Shown here piece after piece: positions 12,481 to 16,377 of a DNA stretch of 64,000 nucleotides. The notes under the pieces are model-generated. The model saw only the letters and a list, made by a program, of their open reading frames with translations. It made no database searches and was not told where the DNA came from. A program made the translations under genes and the position numbers. The stretch's first letter is position 1. Every line of letters begins with the position of its first letter. Source of the stretch: Methylobacterium sp. Leaf123 (GTDB taxonomy: Bacteria > Pseudomonadota > Alphaproteobacteria > Rhizobiales > Beijerinckiaceae). The stretch covers positions 625,384 to 689,383 of the forward strand of contig NZ_LMNS01000001.1 of NCBI RefSeq assembly GCF_001423405.1, written 5' to 3'.

Positions 12481-12806
12481 CGTTCGAGGCACCGCGCCGG
12501 AGATCCAGTCGGTGACGGGCTACATCTCGCGATTTCGCTTTCGGGTCCGGCAAATATTGGTCCGGGTCGTGCCGTGAAGTCGCGGAATATTCGCACCGGA
12601 GCCCATTCGGCCAATGCATCGGCGGGGCGATCGCCGCTTAAGAATATGTTCAATATATCGATAGATCGAAAGGCGTAACCCGTTCTGATTAGTGTTCTTA
12701 TGCTGAAATTTGGTCGCATTTTTAAGTATCAAGACGCTCACTTGGCAGGGGTCGCGTGGCGGTCGGAATGGCGGCGAATCCGGACCGCGGGCAATCGAGG
12801 GTGACA
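12481..12806. other. AT-richer gap before the type I secretion genes
   Basis: No credible gene is present. Bases 12640-12735 are clearly AT-richer than the surroundings and probably hold the promoter of the exporter. GGTCCGG occurs twice within about 20 bp near 12545-12565. I cannot assign a specific promoter or operator. Confidence 0.4.
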
Positions 12807-14570
12807 ATGGTGAACGATAGGCGCGACAAGAATGAGATCGCCGCCGCCTTGGCGCGGTGCAAGACGGCCTTCATCGGCGTGGCCGTGATGAGCGGGCTGG
12901 TGAACATTCTCTATCTCACCGGCTCGTTCTTCATGCTCGAAGTCTACGACCGGGTGATCCCGAGCCGCTCCGTGCCGACCCTGATCGGCCTCGCGGCCCT
13001 CGCGCTCGTGCTCTACGCCTTCCAGGGCGTGCTCGAAGCCCTCCGCGGCCGCATCCTCGCCCGCGTCGGCGCGGCGCTGGACGAGGCGCTGAGCGGGCGG
13101 GTGTTCGATCTTGTCGTGCGTGCCCCGCTCAAGGGCGCGAACCAGGGCGACGGCCTTCTGCCCCTGCGCGATCTCGACCAGATCCGCGCGTTCCTGTCCG
13201 GCTCTGGCCCCTCCGCCTTCTTCGACCTGCCCTGGATGCCGGTCTACCTGCTGATCTGCTTCCTGTTTCACCCGCTGATCGGCGTCGCCGCCCTCGTCGG
13301 CATGGGCATCCTCGCCGCCTTGACCTTCCTCACCGACCGGGCCAGCAAGGGCCCGACGCGGGCCGCGACCGGCCATGGCATGCGCCGCAACGCGCTCGCC
13401 GAAGCCGGCCGCCGCAACGCCGAGGTGCTGGCGGCCATGGGCATGCAGGAGCGCCTCGCCGCCCGCTGGGCCGGGGCCAACCGCGAATACATGGAGGCGC
13501 ATCAGGCCGTGTCGGATGCCGGAAGCAGCTTCGGCGCCGGCTCCAAGGTGTTCCGCATGGCGCTGCAATCGGGCGTGCTCGCCCTCGGCGCCTGGCTCGT
13601 CATCCACAACGAGGCCAGCGCCGGCATCATCATCGCCAGCTCGATCCTCGTCTCCCGCGCCCTGGCGCCAGCGGAACTCACCATCGCCAACTGGAAAGGC
13701 TTTGTCGCCGCGCGCCAGAGCTGGCACCGGCTGTCGGAGCTGCTGGCCCGGCTGCCGCAGGGCGAGCAGCCGCACGCCCTGCCGGCGCCCACTGAGACCA
13801 TCACCGTCGAGGCCGCCAGCATCGCCCCACCCGGCACGCCGCGCCTCGTGGTGCAGGATGTCAGCTTCGGCCTCCGGGCGGGGCAGGGGCTCGGCATCAT
13901 CGGCCCCTCGGCTTCCGGCAAGTCCTCGCTGGTGCGCGCCCTCGTCGGCGTCTGGCCGCCGATCCGCGGCAAGATCCGGTTCGACGGCGCGGCGCTCGAT
14001 CAGTGGACCAGCGGCGACCTCGGCCCGCATATCGGCTTCCTGCCGCAGGAGGTCGAACTCTTCGCCGGCACGGTGGCCGAGAACATCGCCCGCTTCGAGC
14101 CGGGCGCATCGGCCGAGGCGGTCATCGCGGCGGCCAAGGCGGCCGGCGTGCACGAGCTGATCCTGCGGCTGCCGGAGGGCTACGACACCCGCATCGGCGA
14201 GGGCGGTTCCGGCCTCTCCGCCGGGCAGCGCCAGCGGGTCGGGCTCGCCCGCGCCCTCTACCGCGAGCCGTTCCTCGTGGTGCTCGACGAGCCCAACGCC
14301 AACCTCGACAGCGAGGGCGAGAACGCCCTGACGCAGGCGATCCTCGGCGTGCGGCGGCGCGGCGGCATCTGCGTCGTCGTCGCCCACCGGCCGAGCGCGC
14401 TCGCCGCCCTCGACCTGATCCTGATGATGGCCGACGGCCGCGCCCAGGCCTTCGGGCCCAAGGACGAGATCCTCAAGCGCGTGCTGCGCCCGGCACCGGC
14501 CCCCGTGCCGGTCGCCGCCGAGGCCGCCGCTCCGCAAGTCGCCGCGCCTTCGATCCGTGAGAGTGCCTGA
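12807..14570 (+). CDS. Type I secretion permease/ATPase (PrtD/HlyB-like ABC exporter)
   Basis: The protein is 587 residues. The N-terminal ABC transmembrane domain (about 15-300) starts with the PrtD-type helix and GSFFMLEVYDRVIPS; the ATPase has Walker A GPSASGKS at 366-373, signature LSAGQ, Walker B VVLDEP and an H-loop VVVAHRP. There is no N-terminal C39 peptidase domain, so the substrate should carry an uncleaved C-terminal signal, as RTX proteins do. The ATG at 12807 follows GAGGG by five bases; GTG 12756 and ATG 12768 are upstream alternatives. It overlaps the HlyD gene by one base. No RTX substrate or TolC is adjacent. Confidence 0.92.
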   Translation: MVNDRRDKNEIAAALARCKTAFIGVAVMSGLVNILYLTGSFFMLEVYDRVIPSRSVPTLIGLAALALVLYAFQGVLEALRGRILARVGAALDEALSGRVFDLVVRAPLKGANQGDGLLPLRDLDQIRAFLSGSGPSAFFDLPWMPVYLLICFLFHPLIGVAALVGMGILAALTFLTDRASKGPTRAATGHGMRRNALAEAGRRNAEVLAAMGMQERLAARWAGANREYMEAHQAVSDAGSSFGAGSKVFRMALQSGVLALGAWLVIHNEASAGIIIASSILVSRALAPAELTIANWKGFVAARQSWHRLSELLARLPQGEQPHALPAPTETITVEAASIAPPGTPRLVVQDVSFGLRAGQGLGIIGPSASGKSSLVRALVGVWPPIRGKIRFDGAALDQWTSGDLGPHIGFLPQEVELFAGTVAENIARFEPGASAEAVIAAAKAAGVHELILRLPEGYDTRIGEGGSGLSAGQRQRVGLARALYREPFLVVLDEPNANLDSEGENALTQAILGVRRRGGICVVVAHRPSALAALDLILMMADGRAQAFGPKDEILKRVLRPAPAPVPVAAEAAAPQVAAPSIRESA

Positions 14571-15916
14571 TGTCCGCGACCCTCGCCCCCCTCAACGGTC
14601 TCCCCCCGGCGCTGCCGCGGCCCGTCGCCCACGGCTCGATCCGCAGCCACCTCACCGTCGCGCTCGGCCTTTCCCTCGCCCTCGTTCTCGGTGTCGGCGG
14701 CTGGGCCACCTTCACCGAGATCTCGGCCGCGGTGATCGCGCCGGGCCAGCTCGTGGTCGAGACCGACGTGAAGAAGGTGCAGCACCCCACCGGCGGCGTC
14801 GTCGGCCAGCTCCTGGCGCGTGAGGGCCAGCGGGTCGCCGCCGGCGACGTGCTGATCCGCCTCGACGAGACCCAGACCCGGGCCAACCTCGACATCGTGC
14901 TCAAGGCCATGGACGAGTTGGCCGCCCGCCGAGCCCGCGACGAGGCCGAGCGCGACGGGCTCAAGACCATCACCTTCCCGCCCGACCTCGTCGCCCGCAT
15001 CGATGACGACCCGAGCGTCGCCCGGCTGATCGACGGCGAATCGCGCCTGTTCGCCGCCCGCGTCGCCGGCCGTGAAGGCCAGAAGGCGCAGTTGCGCGAG
15101 CGCATCGACCAGCTCCGCCAGGAGATCGCCGGGCTCACCAAACAGGCCGAGGCCAAGGATCGCGAGATCGGGCTGATCGGCCACGAGCTGACCGGCGTGC
15201 GCGACCTCTACGCCAAGAACCTCGTGCCGCTCTCGCGCGTCACCGCCTTGGAGCGCGACGCCGCCCGCCTGGAGGGCGAGCGCGGCCAGCTCGTCGCCTC
15301 GACGGCCTCGGCGCGCGGCAAGATCGCGGAGACCGAGCTGCAGATTATTCAGATCGACGGCGAGATGCGCACGGAGACCGGCAAGGATCTGGCCGAAATC
15401 CGCGGCAAGTGGTCGGAGCTGCGCGAGAAGCGGGTGGCGGCGGAGGACCAGCTCAAGCGGGTCGAGCTGCGCGCGCCGCAGGACGGCTTCGTGCACCAGA
15501 TGAGCGTGCACACGGTCGGCGGCCTCGTGGTCCCGAGCGAGCCGGCGATGCTGATCGTCCCGGCCTCCGATCAGCTCCTCGTCGAGGTGCGGGTGCAGCC
15601 GCAGGACATCGACAACGTGCGGGTCGGCCAGAAGGCGGTGCTGCGCTTCTCGGCCTTCAACACGCGCACGACGCCGGAGATCGACGGCGAGGTGGTGCGG
15701 GTCTCGGCGGACGTGACCCAGGACCCCAAGACCGGGCAGAGCTACTACACGGCGCGCATCCGCATCCGCGAGGATCAGAAGGAGCGCCTGAAGGGCCTGC
15801 GGCTGGTGCCGGGCATGCCGGTGGAGTCCTACACCCAGATCGGCGAGCGCTCGGTCCTGTCCTATCTCACGCGGCCTCTGACCGATCAGATTGCAAAAGC
15901 GTGGCGGGAGCGCTGA
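14570..15916 (+). CDS. HlyD-family type I secretion periplasmic adaptor
   Basis: A 448-residue membrane fusion protein with one N-terminal helix (about residues 26-46), a biotinyl-lipoyl-like segment (VIAPGQLVVETDVKKVQHPT), a long coiled-coil hairpin (about 100-270) and a second lipoyl half and beta-barrel. The C-terminal GLRLVPGMPVE is the conserved HlyD end motif. It bridges the ABC exporter and an outer-membrane TolC protein encoded elsewhere. The start overlaps the stop of the ATPase gene (TGATG), so they form one unit. Confidence 0.93.
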   Translation: MSATLAPLNGLPPALPRPVAHGSIRSHLTVALGLSLALVLGVGGWATFTEISAAVIAPGQLVVETDVKKVQHPTGGVVGQLLAREGQRVAAGDVLIRLDETQTRANLDIVLKAMDELAARRARDEAERDGLKTITFPPDLVARIDDDPSVARLIDGESRLFAARVAGREGQKAQLRERIDQLRQEIAGLTKQAEAKDREIGLIGHELTGVRDLYAKNLVPLSRVTALERDAARLEGERGQLVASTASARGKIAETELQIIQIDGEMRTETGKDLAEIRGKWSELREKRVAAEDQLKRVELRAPQDGFVHQMSVHTVGGLVVPSEPAMLIVPASDQLLVEVRVQPQDIDNVRVGQKAVLRFSAFNTRTTPEIDGEVVRVSADVTQDPKTGQSYYTARIRIREDQKERLKGLRLVPGMPVESYTQIGERSVLSYLTRPLTDQIAKAWRER

Positions 15917-15923
15917 TAATCTT

Positions 15924-16099
15924 GGGCGATCGCTTGAAGCGATCGCCCTGGCTCTTCGCCAGCCTCAAACGCCGGCGCCCGCCTCCGCGGGCTTAGGCTT
16001 CCGCTCCGCTCGATACTCTTCAGGACCGAAGTCCTGAAGAGCCCGCTCCGCGCGGCGCTCTTCGCGCCGCGAAGCCGCCCGCGGCTTCGAGCGATTGCC
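15924..16099. repeat. Mosaic palindromic element with nested hairpins
   Basis: Between hlyD and the bL36 gene there are six dyads in a row: 15924-15948 (GGGCGATCGCTT/AAGCGATCGCCC), 15948-15962 (CTGGC/GCCAG), 15977-15992 (GCCCGC/GCGGGC), 16016-16041 (11-bp perfect stem, CGAA loop), 16051-16071 (CGCGGCGC/GCGCCGCG) and 16070-16089 (CGAAGCCGC/GCGGCTTCG). The outer arms 15925-15940 and 16084-16099 also pair over 16 bp with two G-U pairs, so the whole segment can close on itself. It is probably a palindromic intergenic repeat; a structured RNA is the alternative. The first hairpin may also end the exporter transcript. Confidence 0.7.
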
Positions 16100-16251
16100 T
16101 GACCTTGCCTCACGGGCGGGTTGTCTGATAAGGCGACCGCCTCCCCGCGATGTCGCTGATGTCATCGCCGGAGCGTCCCCGTGGCGCTCCGTTCCCTCGA
16201 GACACATGAACAACAGGCGGCCGGTCTCGAATCCGTGCCGATGTGAGACCG

Positions 16252-16377
16252 ATGAAGATTCGCAACTCGCTCAAGTCTCTGCGCGGCCGTCACCGCGATA
16301 ACCAGCTCGTGCGCCGCAAGGGCCGCGTCTACGTCATCAACAAGACGCAGAAGCGCTTCAAGGCCCGCCAGGGCTGA
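16252..16377 (+). CDS. rpmJ: Ribosomal protein bL36, cysteine-free (YkgO-type)
   Basis: A 41-residue basic protein, [14 protein letters not shown] then [17 protein letters not shown] and KRFKARQG. It matches bL36 of the 50S subunit in the variant that lacks the zinc-binding Cys/His set, as in E. coli YkgO. In many bacteria the zinc-free form replaces the zinc form under zinc limitation; in alphaproteobacteria it is often the only copy. It is too short for usual ORF cut-offs. No Zur box was recognised upstream. Confidence 0.93.

Follow-up and report, generated by a model that had tools for sequence, protein, structure and literature searches.

A hairpin-rich repeat between hlyD and rpmJ in Methylobacterium sp. 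Leaf123 is probably an old MITE-like element with ISAs1-type ends, from a family that tends to insert in front of promoters

Introduction

What is the palindromic segment that lies between hlyD and rpmJ in Methylobacterium sp. Leaf123, and how did it come to be there? The segment belongs to the window, the whole stretch of 64,000 nucleotides that was analysed. An initial annotation described it as six consecutive hairpins closed by a 16-bp outer stem, and suggested a palindromic mobile element, a structured non-coding RNA or a terminator of the exporter operon. Bacterial MITEs are short, non-coding elements with inverted ends and dispersed copies. REP/BIME, ERIC and kindred intergenic repeats are palindromic, mosaic and present in many copies, and REP/BIME repeats have been proposed as transcription terminators or mRNA 3' stabilisers. 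Here we compare the locus with its relatives, the repeat with its other copies, and the surroundings of these copies with each other.

The locus and its hairpins

The left end of the element lies 5-8 nt behind the stop codon of hlyD, a range that depends on where this end is placed. On the right, some 150 nt separate it from rpmJ, whose conserved leader follows directly. Its true ends lie at about 15922-15925 on the left and 16101-16103 on the right. The features of the locus, in positions of the window, are as follows.

12756-14570: ABC transporter gene preceding hlyD
14570-15916, + strand: hlyD, the upstream gene, HlyD-family secretion protein (Pfam PF13437)
15921-15924, + strand: left copy of CTTG (in ATCTTG), remnant of a decayed target duplication; the empty site reads ...CTGACAATCTTGCCTC in L077 and L079
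15922-16102, + strand: whole element copy of about 180 bp between hlyD and rpmJ, placed by empty-site comparison and profile boundaries
15924-15935, + strand: left terminal inverted repeat; family consensus CAGGGCNATCGCTT, window copy TTGGGCGATCGCTT from 15922
15924-15948: H1, the terminal repeat opposite an inverted second copy of itself; covarying
15948-15962: H2, a weak hairpin
15977-15992: H3, GCCCGC CTCC GCGGGC; some covariation (CCCGC..GCGGG versus GCCGC..GCGGC)
16016-16041: H4, the central hairpin; strongly covarying, with both sides changed in 8 of 12 pairs
16051-16071: H5, CGCGGCGC TCTTC GCGCCGCG; highly conserved
16071-16088: H6, hairpin GAAGCCGC/GCGGCTTC
16089-16101, - strand: right terminal inverted repeat, window copy CAGGCAATCGCTC, read inward
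16104-16107, + strand: right copy of CTTG (in ACCTTG)
16252-16377, + strand: rpmJ, the downstream gene, ribosomal protein bL36 (Pfam PF00444)

All six inverted repeats of the initial annotation were found at 15924-16099, and the 16-nt arms of the outer stem (15925-15940 and 16084-16099) do pair, with two G·U pairs. The outer stem and H1 are mutually exclusive because both use the identical 5' arm sequence, and the minimum-energy RNA fold of the segment contains H1, not the outer stem. H1 itself contains the terminal repeat once more, as an internal third copy. The RNA fold of the segment reached -99.9 kcal/mol compared with -76.0 ± 4.4 kcal/mol for shuffled sequences (z -5.4), and the opposite strand folded as DNA gave z -5.9; 0 of 200 shuffles was as good in either case.

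Other members of the family were compared in alignment A1, which holds 42 copies of 178-190 bp and leaves out the 24 of 66 copies outside that length. H2 lacks conservation in the remaining copies of this alignment, as judged by eye, and H4 is absent or shortened in some family copies. The two GCGATCGC octamers that had been pointed out are present in H1 of the window copy, but they are peculiar to some copies, and the base pair at this site varies in the family (G-C in 11, A-T in 11 and C-G in 9 of the 42 copies).

At the same locus, the element is present in a second genome (G005), and three others (G027, G009 and G018) have uninterrupted sequence without it. The empty site reads CTGACAATCTTGCCTC in G027 and G018 and CTGACAACCTTGCCTC in G009, and when these are aligned over the junction the overlap is 4 bp, CTTG. 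The duplication of the window copy is decayed to 4-6 bp (ATCTTG / ACCTTG), with 2/10 in the standard 10-bp register. Its left end reads TTGGGC compared with the usual CAGGGC, the terminal CA being missing. The window copy is an old member of the family.

A terminator or mRNA 3' stabiliser closing the exporter operon would fit an element that begins this close behind the hlyD stop codon, and its GC-rich 3' hairpins could slow exonucleases or RNA polymerase. However, no terminator-like site, that is a hairpin followed by a T-run, was found in 15850-16300, and hlyD still adjoins rpmJ in the three genomes that lack the element. Moreover, the recurrent neighbour of the repeat across the family is an outward promoter 18-20 bp away, as described below. 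We therefore consider this role unlikely, and the earlier proposal of an operon terminator is not borne out. An Rfam scan of the locus gave no match within the element and two weak matches near it, both under the gathering score.

A sigma70-like match, TTGCAA-N18-GATAAT, was seen at 15891-15920, where it ends just before the element, and could drive transcription of the element. This match may be lineage-specific because the empty-site relatives read GACAAT or GACAAC at this place.

A dispersed family with the hallmarks of a transposable element

A DNA search (E ≤ 1e-7) placed the repeat at 25 separate places in its own genome (G000), on both strands and on many contigs; split pieces were merged in this count and the window copy is included. 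The copy-number check proposed in the initial annotation thus gave a dispersed multicopy repeat, not a single copy. When the window and 37 stretches of G000 were searched with a profile, the duplicate stretches L046, L047, L050, L058 and L158 being excluded, 30 places were found at E ≤ 1e-4, with none in 9 of the 37 stretches. Family matches occurred in 37 of 99 genomes of the genus (E ≤ 0.001, scoring being limited to 8 candidates per genome). A core pattern of 36 letters, searched as an exact match, hit 14 stretches among 84,980 species, each represented by one genome, and all 14 were titled Methylobacterium or Methylorubrum (podarium, rhodinum, aminovorans, salsuginis, sp. W2 and sp. R2-1). 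Among 72,556 plasmid records there was one match, in Methylobacterium bullatum; no feature is listed under it, in a gene table that is incomplete.

The ends of the copies are uniform. The typical start is CAGGGCNATCGCTTGAA or CTTCAA and the typical end TTCGAGCGATNGCCCTG (71 full-length copies), and a CAGGGCNATCGCTT-type inverted repeat stands at both ends of full-length copies. A 10-bp target duplication with at least 8 of 10 bases matching flanks 34 of the 71 (15 of them perfectly). The flank counts excluded the orthologous copies L055, L184, L209, L051 and L056, and the duplication was kept in 31 of 66 copies once these five were removed. Left and right flanks paired at random reached the same level in 0.35% of 2000 draws, and flank matching drops to background past 10 bp, save for a preferred C at the next position. 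Four more loci of G000 (C23:331084, C38:55884, C2:63833 and C2:64933) have counterparts in relatives without the element or with one of different size, but at these four loci the flanks were too drifted for a duplication to be read.

The family is palindromic and mosaic, like BIMEs, and could in principle be a repeat of the REP/BIME type that a RAYT (Y1) transposase moves. Movement of this kind is not expected to duplicate the target. The 10-bp duplications, together with terminal inverted repeats in common with an insertion sequence of the DDE type (see below), point to a DDE enzyme instead, and we regard movement by RAYT as extremely unlikely.

The repeat is short (about 180 bp), multicopy and dispersed, and too small for a transposase gene. 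It also has terminal inverted repeats, a target duplication of fixed length, and insertion polymorphism with empty sites, as expected of a MITE. The mobile element of the initial annotation is supported by its copy number, empty sites, inverted ends and 10-bp duplications, and by a matching ISAs1 insertion sequence. Our conclusion, at a probability of about 0.88, is that the segment was left by an old insertion of a MITE-like transposable element that is non-autonomous and belongs to the ISAs1 family.

Covariation of the hairpins

In the 42 full-length copies, 92.8% of the cells of the five local stems hold standard pairs. Changes on both sides of a stem affected 20 pairs and 89 cells, compared with 9.2 pairs and 21.2 cells in shuffled alignments (0 of 500 as high), and slid controls gave 13-21 cells. 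The covariation that had been proposed as a check is thus strong in the local hairpins. The end-to-end stem was 82.3% paired and its covariation showed no excess (15 versus 11.8 cells).

The G·U pairs of the outer stem had been taken as a hint of conservation at the RNA level. On the strand as written, the local hairpins of the 42 copies contain 38 G·T compared with 74 A·C mispairs. The outer stem contains 56 G·T and 38 A·C; a single fixed T·G pair accounts for 34 of the G·T, and without that pair the numbers are 22 and 37. G·U is thus rarer than A·C in both, which speaks against the hint. The cells of this test are not independent, a single pair in H4 supplying 11 A·C cells, and the test was therefore used solely against the G·U claim.

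A structured non-coding RNA, either an sRNA or a cis-regulatory element, that is conserved for its fold and was duplicated around the genome would account for local stems that covary well beyond the shuffled and slid controls, and for the promoter-like match that ends at 15920, just ahead of the element. Against this, G·U pairs show no excess on the strand as written (this point does not bear on an RNA from the other strand), the Rfam scan is without a match inside the element, and orthologous sites lack it. The family also has target duplications and transposon ends, and the neighbouring promoter may lie off either end of a copy (26 right and 26 left ends, see below). An RNA function of this type is very unlikely in our view. 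Palindrome-correcting mutation during replication makes double changes without selection, and hairpin covariation can also be produced by such correction at the DNA level. The hairpins may thus be kept up by selection for folding in transposition or transcription, or by palindrome-correcting mutation, or both may contribute. Covarying hairpins in repeats are not necessarily functional RNA.

A probable ISAs1-family partner

Ends starting with CAGGG together with repeats of 8-10 bp, which are suggestive of the ISAs1 family, prompted a search for the associated domain PF13808. Matches were found in 3 of 8 genomes. One of these genomes (G016) has two identical 1267-bp elements (L221 608-1874 and L224 1391-2657) with the ends CAGGGCAATCGCTTCAG and CAGGGGAATCGCTTCAG, and one of them has a 9/10 target duplication and the other none (1/10). 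The two ORFs of these elements score 75 and 280 bits against NF033564 (transpos_ISAs1; cut-off 70) and also match PF13808/PF01609. The transposase gene is split across two overlapping frames, and these copies may be dead for this reason. The minus-strand reading of the two copies includes LILSLSKDD, a string also found in a widespread small palindromic repeat, and such a repeat may have split the gene.

The ends of our element are near-identical to those of the G016 insertion sequence over about 14-17 bp, and terminal matches to it were found in 32 of the 42 copies. From these ends and the duplications we infer that the element would be mobilised by an ISAs1 transposase. Because the common part is limited to the 14-17-bp ends, simple deletion from the insertion sequence does not explain the element. 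Derivation of the interior from the ISAs1 insertion sequence was considered and rejected, the best interior match having E 0.02.

A related transposase occurs in 15 of 99 genomes of the genus (E ≤ 1e-20), and the same search gave no ISAs1 transposase match in G000. The element and the transposase showed no association in their present-day occurrence, a transposase match being present in 6 of 37 genomes with the element and 9 of 62 without it. This result lends no support to the partnership and counts against it.

A fixed distance to outward -35 boxes

An outward-facing TTG is found 18-20 nt from the end of the element at 52 of 172 ends, where 3.64 were expected from the flank background. The end counts leave out matches under 40 bits, and when related flanks among the 172 ends were merged into 158 groups, 48 had the TTG compared with 3.4 expected (nominal binomial probability below 1e-38). 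By locus, 51 of 107 have a TTG at this distance, one of them on both sides, and 56 do not. The two sides share evenly (26 right and 26 left ends). The peak is 3 bp wide, with 15 right and 16 left ends at position 19 compared with a background of about 0.6-0.8 per position. In about 90%, A or C follows the TTG. A TA step 22-25 nt after the TTG was present in 21 of the 52 (19 of 48 after merging), compared with 1-5 in eight other spacing intervals; this -10-like spacing resembles a -35 box followed by the -10 box of an outward promoter. By a rough gene test, a coding-like ORF start lies on 33 of 52 sides with TTG and on 47 of 119 other sides (p 0.005). These data indicate that insertions of the family tend to lie a set distance upstream of promoters.

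The spacing could also reflect survival alone, harmful insertions elsewhere having been lost. Intergenic space is limited, and insertions inside genes or promoters would be purged. A peak only 3 bp wide is not readily produced in this way, and the TTG pattern is equal in copies with intact (16/31) and decayed (20/35) duplications. Furthermore, autonomous ISAs1 copies of the genus show the -35 spacing too: with ends accepted by eye, 6 of 9 had TTG at 18-19, and 4 of 6 under a stricter automatic rule. The set accepted by eye leaves 12 of 21 listed loci unused, either for lack of acceptable ends or as repeats, one element being listed twice. Survival alone is therefore an improbable explanation compared with a preference at insertion.

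Searches in the genus, the class and the phylum gave 77 ISAs1 loci that were examined; ends were found for 31, and 12 of these had TTG at 18-20 compared with 3.6 expected. Three copies from outside the genus with CGCATAT ends (L299, L311 and L312) have clean 10-bp duplications but lack a TTG at 18-20 bp, which suggests that ISAs1 clades do not all follow one target rule. The -35 rule is uneven between clades and patchy outside the genus, and its extension to ISAs1 in general would be tentative.

The window copy has a TTG at position 18 (TTGTCT) and was scored as a match to the target rule, but its fit is not a clean one. This TTGTCT is without a -10-like step at the usual spacing, and a second -35 candidate, CTTGCC, sits at the junction itself. 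The local effect of the window copy is likely to be neutral or insulating.

Discussion

Of the present findings, the preference for sites upstream of -35 boxes is the most interesting. As a mechanism, an ISAs1 transposase, not found in G000 today, would bind the CAGGGCNATCGCTT ends in trans and make a staggered cut of 10 bp, integrating the element about 9 bp ahead of the -35 box of a sigma70 promoter. The insertion point would be the region where the alpha subunit of RNA polymerase or an UP element would sit. Insertion could occur in either orientation because both ends of the element are nearly identical. Selection on the folding of the DNA or RNA may maintain the internal hairpins; palindrome-correcting repair may do so instead or in addition.

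We tentatively go one step further, to a model that we hold possible although doubtful. A clade of ISAs1 transposases might sense promoter DNA or bound RNA polymerase and insert about 9 bp upstream of the -35 box, and the passenger might have evolved to insulate the promoter and to swap ends between transposase partners. If so, insulation of the promoter from upstream transcription would let the passenger spread at little cost, and a promoter-seeking transposition system would exist outside the Mutator-like families.

The closest precedent for DDE elements with a constant spacing to downstream -35 boxes is given by TnGBS, ISLre2 and part of the ISKra4 group. These have Mutator-like p-MULT DDE transposases; TnGBS and related elements insert 15-17 bp upstream of -35 boxes, and those with near-symmetric ends have promoters on either side, like our family (PMC3942029). 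They differ from our family in the transposase family, in their 8-9-bp repeats and in the distance. ISAs1 is unmentioned in the main text of that article.

IS1548 is a member of the ISAs1 family. In Streptococcus agalactiae it sits 9 bp upstream of the putative lmb promoter (PMC2875397). This position would fit the target rule if the 9 bp are measured from the duplication, since 10 bp of duplication and 9 bp make 19. Compared with ISAs1 elements, our element has the same CAGGG-starting ends and 10-bp direct repeats, and 14-17-bp ends in common with the 1267-bp element of G016. Unlike them, it is without a transposase gene and measures about 180 bp versus about 1.2 kb, with an unrelated interior built of hairpins.

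As a short, non-coding element with inverted ends and dispersed copies, our element resembles a bacterial MITE such as MiniMdi3 of Methylobacterium extorquens, which measures about 400 bp and is related to ISMdi3 (PMC2680597). The present family is smaller, packed with hairpins, and has an internal third copy of the terminal repeat in H1. The likeness to REP/BIME and ERIC lies in its palindromic, mosaic and multicopy nature; in contrast to these repeats, it has a partner family of DDE transposases that can be named and 10-bp duplications.

MITEs as a class and promoter-targeted insertion in other families are already known. In the literature searched, no earlier report of this repeat, of ISAs1 MITEs or of an ISAs1 target rule was found, and a prior report of promoter-proximal ISAs1 insertion is possible. 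A recurrent repeat family of Methylobacterium and Methylorubrum is here tied to a transposase family. The precise promoter-proximal rule, which holds for this family and some ISAs1 elements, connects transposition with promoter recognition in a way that can be tested, and it predicts places where such elements could change gene regulation.

Variant copies

Some relatives of the element depart from the usual form. In G016, the left and right parts of five relatives (L155, L167, L169, L174 and L176) are separated or trailed by up to about 215 bp of extra sequence, which suggests further modules or neighbouring copies. A variant in G060 (L065 1482-1666) has its ends changed to CAGGRCAATCGGGTGA, where R covers both of its ends. 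An alphaproteobacterial ISAs1 copy in G534 (L302) has the ends CAGGGCAATCGGGTGA, and the CAATCGGGTGA ends of this ISAs1 element are also borne by L065. This similarity is consistent with a possible change of transposase partner. In G000, the copy at about 2000-2264 of L022 (G000:C12:105501-105761) is split by about 80 bp bounded by the inverted repeat ACAAAACTCCCG / CGGGAGTTTTGT, and this interruption is probably another small nested element.
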